A stretch of DNA of 32,103 bases from Candidatus Chromulinivoraceae bacterium (GTDB lineage: Bacteria; Patescibacteriota; Saccharimonadia; Saccharimonadales; Saccharimonadaceae): the NCBI GenBank assembly GCA_035478595.1, contig DATIJL010000010.1, forward strand, positions 99,733-131,835, in the 5' to 3' direction. The position numbers and the translations under genes were made by a program. Every line of letters begins with the position of its first letter. Positions within the stretch are counted from its first letter, which is position 1. The notes below the pieces were generated by a model, which was given only the letters and a program-made list of their open reading frames with translations, was not told where the DNA came from and did not search any database. Shown here in pieces: positions 10,908-15,517 of the stretch.

Positions 10908-11507
10908 ATGAATGAAGCAAACATTGGCGTTGGCCCATATCCTCAGCCTTGGCCAGATGACCCACGACTTGATCCCGAACTACTGATAAACGGTGACAAG
11001 CGTAATGTGGAAGATAAGTATCGCTATTGGACAGTAGAGGCTATTAAAGCTGATTTAAAGGCTAGTCGTCACACATTTCATGTCGCAATAGAAAATTGGC
11101 AGCACGATTTAAATATCGGTACGATTGTTCGTGGTGCGAATGCTTTTAATGCTGGTGCAGTGCATATTATTGGCAAACGTCATTGGAACAGGCGTGGTGC
11201 GATGGTGACGGATAGGTATATCGAGATTATCCAGCATCCAACTGTTGACGATTTCATAAAGAATATCGGTACACGTCAGATTGTAGCCGTTGATAACCTT
11301 CCTGGTGCAATACCCCTATCACAAACAACTTTGCCAAAAGAGTGTGTATTAGTTTTTGGTGGAGAAGGTCCAGGTTTGAGTGAAGAGATGCAGAAAGTGG
11401 CAAATATTATGGTGATGATTGAACAGTTTGGCAGTACGCGTTCAGTTAATGTAGGCGTAGCGGCAGGAATTGTGATGTACGAGTGGCTTAGAGAGTATGC
11501 TTTATAA
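10908..11507 (+). CDS. TrmH/SpoU family RNA 2'-O-methyltransferase
   Basis: A knotted (SPOUT) SAM-dependent methyltransferase of 199 aa acting on rRNA or tRNA ribose. The three SpoU motifs are present: motif 1 LNIGTIVRGANAF (68-80) with Asn69 and Arg75, motif 2 LVFGGEGPGLSEE (148-160), and motif 3 STRSVNVGVAAGIVMYE (176-192), the SAM-binding knot. The N-terminal 55 residues carry no RNA-binding domain I recognise. The ATG at 10908 is chosen over the upstream in-frame ATGs because a -10 box lies at 10893-10898, inside the longer frame, and because similarity begins downstream. The target nucleotide is not predictable. Confidence 0.88.
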   Translation: MNEANIGVGPYPQPWPDDPRLDPELLINGDKRNVEDKYRYWTVEAIKADLKASRHTFHVAIENWQHDLNIGTIVRGANAFNAGAVHIIGKRHWNRRGAMVTDRYIEIIQHPTVDDFIKNIGTRQIVAVDNLPGAIPLSQTTLPKECVLVFGGEGPGLSEEMQKVANIMVMIEQFGSTRSVNVGVAAGIVMYEWLREYAL

Positions 11508-11513
11508 GAGTGC

Positions 11514-11542
11514 TTGGCAAAGTGTCGAGTGCATGTCATACT
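11514..11542 (+). promoter_or_regulatory. Promoter of the gene at 11549
   Basis: TTGGCA (11514-11519), 17 nt, CATACT (11537-11542) with TG at the extended -10 position. It ends 6 nt before the ATG, so a leaderless mRNA is predicted. Confidence 0.65.
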
Positions 11543-11548
11543 TACGGT

Positions 11549-12142
11549 ATGAGCGAACGGCGACTACAACCGGTGACGCGCGTACGGGGTGAGCTACAGC
11601 CCTCTCCGGCGGTCGTTCGCGCGGTAAATCGCTTTCTTGAAAAACCAATGGATGAACGTTCCGCGAGGATGTATACGACAGCGCAGACAGTCGTAACCCA
11701 GGGCGAACATCGCACACGTCACGCACTTGAGCTTGCTGATATTGAACGAGAAATGCGAAAGCGATCACTTGCGCAGCGTGCGTTTGTTCTAGCGCAGCCA
11801 CTTGGACTGCAAGAGCATCAAGACGGCAGTGGCCGTCTGTTTTTTAATGTTGCATCTAAAAACACACGCGATCTTCGGTGGGTCGGCGAACAGTTGAACG
11901 CTATTGAAGGACTTGAAGAACCAGACGAAAACGATTTACTCTATGTCGAGATTGCCAAGGGCGGCCTAGCTCACGAGCGCAGACGGCGTCGAGAGCAGGT
12001 GATGGAGGGACGTGATTTGATAGGGGCGGAGTTGCGGCATCCCTCCGCACAATATCGTATGACGGCAATCGGACTACATATCGTCACGAGAGATATGATG
12101 TATTCCGTTGCTGAACGCGAAGGTTTGCCACTTGCAGAATAA
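11549..12142 (+). CDS. Hypothetical protein, 197 aa
   Basis: I do not recognise a family. The ATG at 11549 is chosen because a complete promoter ends 6 nt before it; the longer frame from GTG 11510 would overlap that promoter. The protein is soluble and very rich in Arg and Glu. A long helical segment lies around residues 50-80 (HALELADIEREMRKRSLAQRA region), with an Arg cluster HERRRRREQ near 142-150. It could be a nucleic-acid- or ribosome-associated protein, but nothing specific supports that. It lies between the SpoU gene and the His-leader unit. Confidence 0.72.
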   Translation: MSERRLQPVTRVRGELQPSPAVVRAVNRFLEKPMDERSARMYTTAQTVVTQGEHRTRHALELADIEREMRKRSLAQRAFVLAQPLGLQEHQDGSGRLFFNVASKNTRDLRWVGEQLNAIEGLEEPDENDLLYVEIAKGGLAHERRRRREQVMEGRDLIGAELRHPSAQYRMTAIGLHIVTRDMMYSVAEREGLPLAE

Positions 12143-12152
12143 ATGATATAAT
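12125..12152 (+). promoter_or_regulatory. Promoter of the His-leader / hisS operon
   Basis: TTGCCA (12125-12130), 16 nt, TATAAT (12147-12152) with TGA directly upstream (extended -10). It is the closest match to consensus in the window. It overlaps the end of the preceding gene and ends 6 nt before the leader-peptide ATG. Confidence 0.75.
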
Positions 12153-12158
12153 TATTAC

Positions 12159-12215
12159 ATGAACTACATTGCTATCCATCATTCATTCCATCATTCACAT
12201 ATATTGCCGAAGTGA
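12159..12215 (+). CDS. His-rich leader peptide (18 aa)
   Basis: MNYIAIHHSFHHSHILPK, with five His in eight residues (codons 7, 8, 11, 12, 14; all CAT), then TGA at 12213-12215. The start codon is 6 nt after a consensus -10, so the ribosome would load on a leaderless transcript. The end of the frame overlaps a set of alternative hairpins finishing in an intrinsic terminator (12253-12277), and hisS is in the downstream operon. This is the layout of classical ribosome-mediated attenuation: stalling at His codons when charged tRNA-His is short should favour antitermination. The peptide itself is expected to have no other role. Confidence 0.8.
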   Translation: MNYIAIHHSFHHSHILPK

Positions 12216-12277
12216 TCCGGATAGTTTTCTATAACCCTTATTTATATAAATACGCCGGATATCGCTTCGGCGTTTTT
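12206..12277 (+). promoter_or_regulatory. Candidate His-responsive transcription attenuator
   Basis: The terminator is CGCCGGA (12253-12259) with TTCGGCG (12266-12272), 6-nt loop, then TTTTT. The antiterminator is ATCCGG (12215-12220) with CCGGAT (12255-12260), which captures the terminator 5' arm. A further arm GCCGAAG (12206-12212) pairs with CTTCGGC (12265-12271). A ribosome at the UGA (12213) would cover ATCCGG and allow termination. One stalled at His codons (12177-12200) would leave it free. With no ribosome the arms merge into one long hairpin. Confidence 0.7.
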
Positions 12278-12307
12278 ATGTTGTGAAAAATAACCAAGGA
12301 GAATTAA

Positions 12308-13007
12308 ATGAATAAACTTGAAATTACAAATAAAAGAACTAAACGCGAACTGAACGATATGCTTGATAATCGTGAGTCTGTAGATCTTCGACTACCTTCG
12401 GGTGCTCTGTGCTGGCTTCATCGACCGTAATTTTGAAGAAGTAGCTGAAGAGGCCGAGGCACTTGACGAACGCATTGTACCCATAGCACTTCAAAAACTT
12501 GCGCTCACGACGCTATCTCTATGTGAAAAGCGCAAGCAACTCATTTCAGTCGGCAATAGCGCAGGAGATATTACACAATTCTGGCCCCGCAGCTTGGCTA
12601 TTACGGAGTTACGAATGCGTACGGTCGATGACAATCGAGTAAGAGAGCTTCGCCGACTCGAAGCCGGGGATACAACTGTAGCAAACGGACCTTTCTGCTT
12701 TGTTGATGATGTGGCGGTAAGTGGCCTGACGCTTGCCGTAGCGCGCGAAGCTTTCGATGCTGACGACACATCAATAGCAGCTGTGGGTATGGCTATGGCC
12801 TCAAAGCGTCTTGAAAAACGAGCTGGCATGAAAGTGTACAGCGCTATTCAGTATCAGCAGGAGGGAGGAGGGCGTCCCGCCGTCAATACTCTGGCTACCC
12901 TCGCGGAACGCTCGGATATACGGCGTCAGTATGCGGTTGCAAAGTTTGGTAATGAGAAAGCCATGGAGAGCATTATAAAAACCTACGAACGAGGAGTTCT
13001 TTTATGA
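12308..13007 (+). CDS. Phosphoribosyltransferase-like protein with apparent frameshift
   Basis: An ATG at 12308 follows AAGGAG and opens MNKLEITNKRTKRELNDMLDNRESV, but this frame stops at 12428-12430. The +1 frame continues as IFDYLRVLCAGFIDRNFEEV from about 12384 and runs to the TGA at 13005-13007. Joining them near GTAG at 12378-12384 gives a natural protein of about 232 aa. The C-terminal half holds a type I phosphoribosyltransferase PRPP loop, FCFVDDVAVSGLT (98-110 from the GTG at 12402). The specific substrate is unknown. The next gene overlaps its stop (ATGA). The shift could be mutation, an assembly error or recoding. If real, translation of the long part would start at GTG 12402, which has no ribosome-binding site. 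It is the first gene after the His attenuator. Confidence 0.6.
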
Positions 13008-13630
13008 AAAAACTACAGATTGCCGTTATTGGATCGGCCGGACCTGAGGAATATGCCTATGATAAACCAATTAAAGCTATGTACGCTGCTGCCGAAACGA
13101 TAGGTCGACTCCTAGCGCAGAAAGAATGCATTATCGTTAATGGCGGTAAGGACGGTGTTATGGAGGCGGTTTGTCGAGGCGCTAAAAGTGCAGGTGGTCT
13201 CACTGTTGCCGAAATATCTGGTGATGGTCGCGGAGAGGGTAATGACTATGTTGATATAGAGATCGTAACTACTGATAGCGGTTTTCGTGGTCCATCTCTG
13301 CTTGTTGGTATGAGTGACGCGGTTATTTCTCTAGGCGGTGGTGCGGGAACACTTCAAGAGTTGTCAGTAGCTTATCGTATGCGCAAACCGATAGTTCTCT
13401 ATACGGGCTTTGGCGGTTGGACTGACCGTGTTGCAAAACTTGACTATCTCGATGAGCGTCAACTTGTGCAATTTGTTCAAGTAAATACCGAAGAATTAGC
13501 AGTCATTAAGGCCATCCAATTGGCAAAAAAGGAGAAAAATAATGTCGGCAGAAAACCGCTCAACCTTGCTTTCCGAGGAAAAAAATGCAACAATAACCCC
13601 AATGAGTACGTTGTCATCACAGCCATATAA
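13004..13630 (+). CDS. LOG-like Rossmann protein (TIGR00725 type, lysine-decarboxylase-like fold)
   Basis: Rossmann-fold protein with the NGGKDGVM loop at 46-53 and SLGGGAGTLQEL at 109-120, the counterpart of the PGGxGTxxE signature. Relatives include nucleoside 5'-monophosphate phosphoribohydrolases (LOG) and the TIGR00725 group of putative nucleotide- or cofactor-binding proteins; activity here is unproven. The ATG overlaps the upstream TGA, so translation is coupled. The family part appears to end near residue 175. The last 33 residues are Asn/Lys-rich, unlike the family, and run 89 nt into hisS, suggesting loss of an earlier stop. Its place beside a phosphoribosyltransferase-like gene and hisS hints at nucleotide metabolism co-regulated with histidine charging (inference). 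Confidence 0.75.
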   Translation: MKKLQIAVIGSAGPEEYAYDKPIKAMYAAAETIGRLLAQKECIIVNGGKDGVMEAVCRGAKSAGGLTVAEISGDGRGEGNDYVDIEIVTTDSGFRGPSLLVGMSDAVISLGGGAGTLQELSVAYRMRKPIVLYTGFGGWTDRVAKLDYLDERQLVQFVQVNTEELAVIKAIQLAKKEKNNVGRKPLNLAFRGKKCNNNPNEYVVITAI

Positions 13631-14939
13631 AGGCACCCGAGATTTCTATCCTGCTGAAAAGCGTGTGCAAAATTATATCTTTTCCAACTGGAAACAAATT
13701 GCGATAAGTTTTGGGTATGAAGAGTACGGTGCACCGCTTTTGGAGCCGCTTGAAGTCTATGCGGCTAAATCAGGCCAAGAGCTAGCCAATGAACAAACCT
13801 ATGCTTTTTCTGACCGTGGAGAGCGAACGGTTGCTATTCGTCCAGAAATGACACCAAGTATTAGCCGTATGGTTGCTGCTCGTCGTCAAGAGATGGCGTA
13901 TCCAGCTCGCTTGTTTAGCATTGCCAATTTTATGCGCTATGAACGCCCTCAGCGTGGTCGTGAGCGCGAGTTTTGGCAACTGAATGTCGATATCTTTGGC
14001 GTGGATGGTGCTTTGCCTGAGGCGGAGATCATTACAATGGGTGCAACTTTTATGAAACGTTTTGGCGCGACTGATGATATGTTTATCATCAAGATTAATA
14101 ACCGCAAGGTTATTAACTATATGATGAGTGAATATCTTGGTCTTGATGCGGTTCAGTCGCAGCTTATGATTAAACTATTTGACCGAAAAAATAAAATCTC
14201 AAACGAAGATTTCCGTGATCAAGCGATCGAAATCTTTGGAGATGATAAAGCTCCTGAGGGTCTTTCTAAGATCGCCAAGCTACTTAGCGCTAAGGCAATG
14301 GCGGAGCTGCCGGATAGCATTCGTGAAAACGAAGCTGTTAAAGAAGTTCAACAACTTTTTAAACTTCTAGAGCGCTCAGGCGTTAAGAATGCGACGTTTG
14401 ATATTACTCTTATGCGTGGCCTCGACTATTATACTGGTACGGTATTTGAGTTTTTTGATACTGACCCCGAAAATAATCGTTCACTCTTTGGTGGAGGCCG
14501 TTACGATGGTTTAGTCGGTTTATTTGGTGCTGAACCTATCTCGGCTGTTGGCATGGCGCCGGGCTACACGATGACTGAACTATTCTTGCAAACACACAAT
14601 TTGTTGCCTAAGCTACCTTCAACGACTGAGGTCTATATGGTTGTCCTGGGTGATGCGCTCGAAGGCGGAATGAAGCTTGCTGACGAACTGCGAAGCGAGG
14701 GTGTGATGGTTGAAGTGGATATTACTGGTCGCAAACTCGACAAGCAACTTAAGACAGCGGTTAAAAAAGAGATTCCATTCATTGTATTCGTAGGTGAAAA
14801 AGAATTGCAATCAGAGATTTACCCGTTTAAGGATACTGCTTCAAGTGAAGAGCAAAAGTTTGCGTTTGAGCGTATCGTGAGCAGCGTTAAGGATCGTCGT
14901 CGCAAATCGCAAGATGATCTTTCAGATCTTTTTGAGTAG
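13542..14939 (+). CDS. hisS: Histidyl-tRNA synthetase
   Basis: Class II synthetase that charges tRNA-His. The N-terminal KGTRDFYP (30-37) is the family opening. Motif 2 with its loop, SIANFMRYERPQRGREREFWQLNVDIFG, is at 126-153. The histidine-specific motif RGLDYYTGTVFEF is at 292-304, and GGGRYDGL begins at 317. The C-terminal alpha/beta anticodon-binding domain spans about 370-455. The ATG at 13542 has AAGGAG seven bases upstream; a second ATG at 13602 lacks one, so the longer start is preferred despite an 89-nt overlap with the previous gene. The extra N-terminal 25 residues look disordered. It is the last gene of the operon preceded by the His-leader attenuator, which would raise its expression when tRNA-His is uncharged. 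Confidence 0.95.
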   Translation: MSAENRSTLLSEEKNATITPMSTLSSQPYKGTRDFYPAEKRVQNYIFSNWKQIAISFGYEEYGAPLLEPLEVYAAKSGQELANEQTYAFSDRGERTVAIRPEMTPSISRMVAARRQEMAYPARLFSIANFMRYERPQRGREREFWQLNVDIFGVDGALPEAEIITMGATFMKRFGATDDMFIIKINNRKVINYMMSEYLGLDAVQSQLMIKLFDRKNKISNEDFRDQAIEIFGDDKAPEGLSKIAKLLSAKAMAELPDSIRENEAVKEVQQLFKLLERSGVKNATFDITLMRGLDYYTGTVFEFFDTDPENNRSLFGGGRYDGLVGLFGAEPISAVGMAPGYTMTELFLQTHNLLPKLPSTTEVYMVVLGDALEGGMKLADELRSEGVMVEVDITGRKLDKQLKTAVKKEIPFIVFVGEKELQSEIYPFKDTASSEEQKFAFERIVSSVKDRRRKSQDDLSDLFE

Positions 14940-14964
14940 AACGTAGCCGATACTAGTCGATGTG

Positions 14965-14998
14965 TGTTATAGTTTTTCTCTAGTGGCACTTCTGCCAC
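14965..14998 (+). promoter_or_regulatory. Extended -10 promoter and 5'-terminal hairpin of cassette C
   Basis: TGTTATAGT (14965-14973) is an extended -10. The hairpin GTGGCA-CTTC-TGCCAC (14983-14998) begins about 3 nt after the predicted start of transcription. Confidence 0.5.
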
Positions 14999-15022
14999 CC
15001 CCGACAACAGATGGAGCGTTTC

Positions 15023-15439
15023 ATGGGGATTAGTATCGTGTCTGGTGTTAACTGGACGGTTGAAGGTGGTATGTTCACCATCTTCGATCAGAAGGGGTTT
15101 GTCAGAGAGAGCAAGTGGGTTGTATCCGTCGACTTTCTCGGCGGTGCACTGTCGTCGATCAACCCGTCGCCGATCAAGCGAGACGTCGAGGGAGTCATCG
15201 CTGGCGACATCCGTGATGGCAACGGTGACAAGATCGCCTATGTCGGTGTGGGTCCGTTCCAGGGACTGCTACTGGCTCTGGAGGGTGTCATCACCCTGCA
15301 GATGCTGCGTGCTTCGACTGAGACGCCCGACCGCATCATCATGGACGCCAATCTCGGTGGCGTCGAGCGCAAACTTGTCGTTCTGAAGGAGACCGCCTAT
15401 ACCTGGGCGACCTTCGACGGAAACGACGAGGTCGTCTGA
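15023..15439 (+). CDS. Orphan GC-rich protein, 138 aa (cassette C)
   Basis: No family recognised. The ATG at 15023 is chosen because GGAG lies 6 nt upstream; the frame also has an ATG at 15011, but that one overlaps this ribosome-binding site. Codons end overwhelmingly in C or G, unlike hisS and tig on either side. The protein has no cysteine, is Gly- and Val-rich, and looks mostly beta: short hydrophobic strands alternate with turns such as EGGMFTIFDQKG and DIRDGNGDKIAYVGVG, followed by one probable helix (QGLLLALEGVITLQML). It is a single-gene unit with a hairpin at the predicted mRNA 5' end and a GC-rich terminator after the TGA. It was probably acquired. Confidence 0.75.
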   Translation: MGISIVSGVNWTVEGGMFTIFDQKGFVRESKWVVSVDFLGGALSSINPSPIKRDVEGVIAGDIRDGNGDKIAYVGVGPFQGLLLALEGVITLQMLRASTETPDRIIMDANLGGVERKLVVLKETAYTWATFDGNDEVV

Positions 15440-15444
15440 AGTAC

Positions 15445-15487
15445 GGGGCTCCGCGGCCTATCAGGTCGCGGAGAATCCCCACGTTTT
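15445..15487 (+). terminator. Terminator of cassette C
   Basis: CTCCGCGGCC / GGTCGCGGAG (10 bp, one G-T pair, 5-nt loop) with outer GGGG/CCCC and a TTTT run after it. Confidence 0.75.
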
Positions 15488-15492
15488 GTTGA

Positions 15493-15517
15493 GTCCACAT
15501 TGTCGGTGGGCTTTTTT
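15493..15517 (+). terminator. Second terminator upstream of tig
   Basis: GTCCAC / GTGGGC (one G-T pair), 7-nt loop, then TTTTTT. It insulates tig from cassette C. Confidence 0.55.

Follow-up and report, generated by a model that had tools for sequence, protein, structure and literature searches.

What controls hisS in a small bacterial genome when a short frame rich in His codons stands before its operon? The window, that is, the whole stretch of DNA analysed (32,103 nt; Candidatus Chromulinivoraceae bacterium, contig DATIJL010000010.1), comes from a genome of 1.14 Mb. The hisS comparison placed its nearest hisS relatives in the Saccharibacteria, which agrees with the epibiont-type bacterium supposed in a preliminary description of this DNA. 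Leader-peptide attenuation is a classical mechanism. In this study, we believe that a ribosome-mediated transcription attenuator on a leaderless transcript, which would sense charged tRNA-His, very probably controls hisS; this reading is drawn from sequence comparison. The features are collected in Table 1.

Table 1. Predicted features of the leader and the operon (positions in the window)
Feature	Positions	Strand	Details
Promoter	12125..12152	+	-35 TTGCCA 12125-12130, 16-nt spacer, -10 TATAAT 12147-12152; 11/12 matches
Leader peptide frame, leaderless layout	12159..12215	+	MNYIAIHHSFHHSHILPK*, 18 codons, five CAT codons
Antiterminator 5' arm	12206..12220	+	GCCGAAGTGATCCGG; overlaps final leader codons and stop; fold, covariation
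Antiterminator 3' arm	12255..12271	+	common to terminator; fold, covariation
Intrinsic terminator	12253..12277	+	7-bp hairpin CGCCGGA/TTCGGCG, then TTTTT; fold, covariation
First operon gene, phosphoribosyltransferase-like by eye	12308..13007	+	SD AAGGAG at 12296
Second operon gene, SLOG/TIGR00725 family	13004..13630	+	ATGA overlap with first gene
hisS, histidine--tRNA ligase	13602..14939	+	TIGR00442, 342.9 bits (cut-off 286.75)

A site scan of positions 11400-15500 ranked the leader promoter as the top promoter-like site (11/12 matches) and rated the leader terminator as a strong terminator-like site. The promoter overlaps the 3' end of the upstream gene, and the leader ATG at 12159 lies 6 nt 3' of the -10 box. 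Transcription by RNA polymerase begins about 7 nt 3' of a -10 box. RNA folding gave the antiterminator helix (12206-12220/12255-12271) an energy of -27 kcal/mol (z -3.9 to -5.5), and none of the dinucleotide shuffles folded as well. When the 5' arm was deleted from the fold, the terminator (12253-12259/12266-12272) formed. The frame given in the preliminary description, with 18 codons, five CAT and an ATG 6 nt after TATAAT, was borne out by the sequence of 12125-12277, and its mutually exclusive pairings ending in a hairpin and TTTTT were recovered by folding and covariation. The 5' arm overlaps the leader stop codon (12213-12215), and the arm has the same placement in relatives. This position would fit masking of the arm by a ribosome at the stop codon, as in a leader-peptide attenuator; the footprint size used for the masking is general knowledge. 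The TGA of the window leader is CGA, an Arg codon, in relatives, and the frame ends three codons early. Despite the early TGA, the usual ribosome footprint would cover the arm. Directly after the stop, a TAGTTTTCTTTTG-like stretch (12216-12232) is conserved, also in relatives. It may be a site where RNA polymerase pauses, which would keep polymerase and ribosome in step.

A His-rich frame is not rare, since the source genome, over 361 kb, has 27 frames with at least five His codons among 12,680 short ones, and the claim therefore rests on comparison and not on the frame by itself. Together with the overlap of the promoter and the upstream gene end, this frequency would suit a His-rich frame that arose by chance beside a normal terminator of the upstream gene. 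That explanation is almost certainly wrong and was already refuted by the comparative data: conservation, covariation and a fixed promoter spacing were found in 51 leaders whose neighbour genes differ. A His-blind scan, which asked for a leaderless short frame, a terminator and a complementary arm, was run on 1.18 Mb of DNA largely collected around hisS. Its output consisted chiefly of these His leaders, with about a dozen frames that seem due to chance, and in this DNA no leader biased to another amino acid was found. A crude scan, again without regard to His, covered 361 kb or about a third of the source genome and gave no other amino-acid-biased leaderless attenuators. Recovery by a scan blind to His and recurrence with covariation indicate that the whole assembly of promoter, frame and helices is not due to chance.

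Homologues of the leader segment are present upstream of hisS in more than 20 distinct relatives, and the aligned leaders read M...HxH[ILM]xPERxG* (asterisk, stop). A covariance model (R1) built from 22 aligned leaders, which contains the His columns and favours matches keeping His, matched 52 of 295 family genomes and 47 of 245 class genomes at E up to 0.1. The matches were spread across many families of the order. Many loci were first collected via the hisS query, and the whole-genome model search was independent of that query. Outside the class, a phylum sample of 287 genomes gave one weak match (E 0.006), which is within chance. The matches L163-L165, with E above 0.007 and without His codons, were rejected as leaders and treated as chance terminators.

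For the covariation counts, we used the MAFFT alignment A2; its members were chosen by sequence similarity and not by structure. Pairing in this alignment reached 88% in the antiterminator, where 7 pairs had changes on both sides, and 99% in the terminator, where 3 pairs did. For both helices, the covariation score was above all slid controls and all 500 shuffles, the shuffle test being weakened by the kinship of the leaders. Upstream and downstream genes differ among the 51 distinct short saccharibacterial leaders compared. Many relatives, close ones included, are without the element. In the close relatives L005, L006, L009 and L010, neither the arms nor the His frame was found in the 330 nt before hisS, and a -10-like box was seen by eye about 6-7 nt before the hisS ATG. 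The module seems to be gained or lost as a whole. The alignment of relatives proposed in the preliminary description yielded conserved His-codon frames and covarying arms. Relatives that retain the operon and lack the His codons or the arms had been named there as counter-evidence; in the relatives, the module was either whole or wholly absent. A start site well away from 12159 was the other counter-evidence named; on this point, the leaders show a conserved spacing of the -10 box.

His is the commonest leader residue (14.7% without the start codon, 51 leaders), and the final His lies exactly 3 codons before the helix-opening Pro codon in 48 of the 51. The leaders use 105 CAT vs 17 CAC codons, and the genome ORFs 1269 vs 1045 (Fisher p 8e-13). 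Two further features are those of an attenuator: codons for the amino acid of the regulated gene are present (five His before hisS), and prediction and covariation point to two exclusive helices, one of them an intrinsic terminator. It is very unlikely that the leader is instead an arrest peptide (H-x-H-x-x-P-E) that stalls on some other signal and works the same RNA switch. HxH and the next P-E/P-A are well conserved across leaders, and a few leaders, some of them distant, have a single His codon. However, P-E-R is within the helix, where pairing explains its conservation; relatives show P-A-R or a shortened P-E-R while His persists; and the targets are hisS and his biosynthesis.

For the attenuator sensing charged tRNA-His, the following order of events is proposed. 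Transcription would start at the leader ATG or a few bases away, and ribosomes would bind at the 5'-terminal AUG. Under scarcity of His-tRNA, the ribosome would stall at the CAT codons that lie directly before the helix; the 5' arm and the 3' arm would pair, the terminator would be blocked, and hisS would be transcribed. With ample His-tRNA, the ribosome would get to the stop codon and its footprint would lie over the 5' arm; with this arm masked, the terminator would form and transcription would end before the operon. Here, we infer the start site, the stalling, the termination and the direction of control. For a ribosome whose A site holds an upstream His codon, the predicted energy of the window antiterminator was -27.0 kcal/mol. 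For one at the stop, the window terminator fold was predicted at -16.5 kcal/mol, and the other leaders were alike. The antiterminator is the predicted default fold when translation is absent, so control would depend on fast leaderless initiation. At the usual footprint, a ribosome stalled at the final His codon would mask some 4 bp in the 5' arm, and an upstream His codon may therefore be more effective. Conservation, covariation and the His-related targets argue for the earlier proposal that tRNA-His charging is sensed by a leader peptide with a 5'-terminal AUG.

A structured RNA with an alternative terminator before an aminoacyl-tRNA synthetase gene could also be a riboswitch that binds histidine or tRNA, or a T-box, the short frame being incidental. 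This is extremely unlikely. Neither the Rfam histidine operon leader nor the Rfam T-box matched the element at the gathering threshold or at E up to 10. The frame and a short stretch after its stop are the only conserved unpaired parts; the frame, the -10 spacing and the position of His are all conserved; and in relatives, a genuine gene ends in this frame. Phage records gave no match to the element. It is also very unlikely that the main product is the short RNA left by termination, or the peptide encoded in it, acting in trans like rnTrpL/peTrpL, with attenuation secondary. There is a precedent, since peTrpL of Sinorhizobium meliloti stems from a leaderless, terminated short transcript (PMC7298713), but the N-terminal half of the saccharibacterial leader peptide is not conserved, whereas the location upstream of his genes is.

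The leaderless layout recurs among the leaders. In 27 of the 51, the distance from the end of the -10 box (5 or 6 of 6 matches) to the start codon is 6 nt, and in 9 it is 7 nt. Boxes at 5-7 nt were found in 37 of 51 leaders vs 5.4% of shuffled upstreams. Before the ATGs of long ORFs in 361 kb of the source genome, -10-like boxes peak at 6 nt (32 vs about 3), and a scrambled hexamer, used as the control in the same DNA, gave no peak. The loci of relatives likewise show a 6-nt peak of -10-like boxes. Leaderless starts are likely common in the source genome. Leaderless genes may make up a sizeable share of it, perhaps a fifth (L196-L213 and the window).

Behind the leader, the reading frame of the first operon gene is broken near 12395-12402: the frame of ATG 12308 stops near 12428, and the conserved frame is open from 12402. 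A sequencing error and a decayed start are candidate readings of this break. The gene matched no Pfam/NCBIfam family and was found in 2 of 394 family genomes; being nearly unique, it was rejected as an anchor or part of the system. It is a rare insert between the leader and hisS. The third place of hisS in the operon, as first described, was borne out by the TIGR00442 match, and the second and third genes both overlap their predecessors, hisS by 29 nt.

hisS lies downstream in 43 short-leader loci, at 0 to 2.5 kb and with variable intervening genes; the hisS behind the leader of L146 is a distant one (30% identity). Other leaders precede hisG-hisE fusions, hisD, hisI and hisB. No hisD and no hisR homologue was found in the source genome, which is consistent with hisS being what remains to regulate there. 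A GNAT acetyltransferase is behind the His leaders or hisR tails of L138, L140, L154 and L160, and in L140 a CntK-like histidine-racemase-like domain, below the family cut-off, follows it. These genes may possibly have unknown histidine salvage or racemization functions. A conserved family without a Pfam/NCBIfam match (the L120 copy was checked) is behind the leader in L120, L144, L155, L162, L167, L172 and L174, often followed by an aspartoacylase-like gene. These are candidate histidine-related genes.

About sixteen model matches have no short leader. In these, a YerC/TrpR-family protein that matches TIGR02531 and PF01371 ends in HHxH..PARA*. In 16 of 17 hisR-like homologues from 235 class genomes, the tail contains His and a terminator-like hairpin comes after it; the remaining one, which is divergent, lacks both. 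The tail is outside the family profile and outside the aligned parts of PDB homologues. The tail-type loci with shared arms are L179-L191, L193 and L194. Their arm resembles GCCAGCTCGTGCTGA with the partner GCCAGCACG..GCTGGC in 15 of 16, and the short-leader arms have GCCGGAGCGA.TCGG instead. The matched changes in both arms indicate that the two types are one design. L192 comes from another family in the class; it has a His-containing tail and a terminator, with unrelated arms and sequence. Behind the hisR tails lie hisG-hisE, hisI, hisD or hisS in many cases, and other genes in the rest. The hisR-tail attenuator of L159 (3710-3804, minus strand) precedes an M20-family peptidase/deacylase gene. 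On balance, we think that completing the hisR/yerC-like repressor would decide the transcription of downstream his genes, and that the free hisS leader would be this module cut loose, or the reverse. Two kinds of histidine control that are known separately, by leader peptide and by TrpR-family repressor, would meet in one gene in the hisR-tail version. In the available part of PMC9413887, HisR (YerC) is the predicted DNA-binding histidine repressor of the TrpR family in Firmicutes; it is homologous to the saccharibacterial protein, but the His tail here is beyond the family model, and that part of the source describes no attenuator at the 3' end.

These data suggest that reduced auxotrophic bacteria still tie an aminoacyl-tRNA synthetase gene to the histidine supply, which for such bacteria is probably the supply by the host. 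The leaders also form a clean set for comparison of putatively leaderless leader peptides, whose initiation, stalling and termination would take place within about 120 nt. A literature search, with subscription papers mostly outside it, found no described amino-acid-specific attenuator in Patescibacteria or Saccharibacteria. The novelty is lower than the preliminary description claimed, since leaderless leader-peptide attenuators are already known outside the phylum (PMC8079986, PMC7298713).

Among the known systems, the hisL attenuator of the enterobacterial his operon responds to charged tRNA-His (PMC9413887 and established knowledge). It shares with the saccharibacterial leader the His codons in a short leader and the exclusive antiterminator and terminator. 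Unlike hisL, the saccharibacterial leader is without a long unbroken His run or a first pausing hairpin, is leaderless in layout, would control hisS and has no Rfam match. In Bacillus, predicted His leader peptides precede hisS* and hisZ (PMC2965389); in some Firmicutes, they precede his operons (PMC9413887). They are of the same kind for hisS-family or his genes, but have runs of His codons, and the available parts of these sources neither describe them as leaderless nor link them to hisR. In Streptomyces lividans, leader peptides on leaderless transcripts precede leuS, trpS and thrS (PMC8079986), likewise aminoacyl-tRNA synthetase genes; the amino acids and the phylum are other ones and the sequence is unrelated. 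The attenuator RNA of S. meliloti trpL begins at the leader ATG (PMC7298713), as is proposed here, and differs in its Trp codons, its biosynthetic target trpE(G) and its place in the Alphaproteobacteria. Compared with these systems, the combination of a leaderless layout, His codons, hisS as target, class-wide recurrence and a repressor-fused version is apparently new for Patescibacteria.
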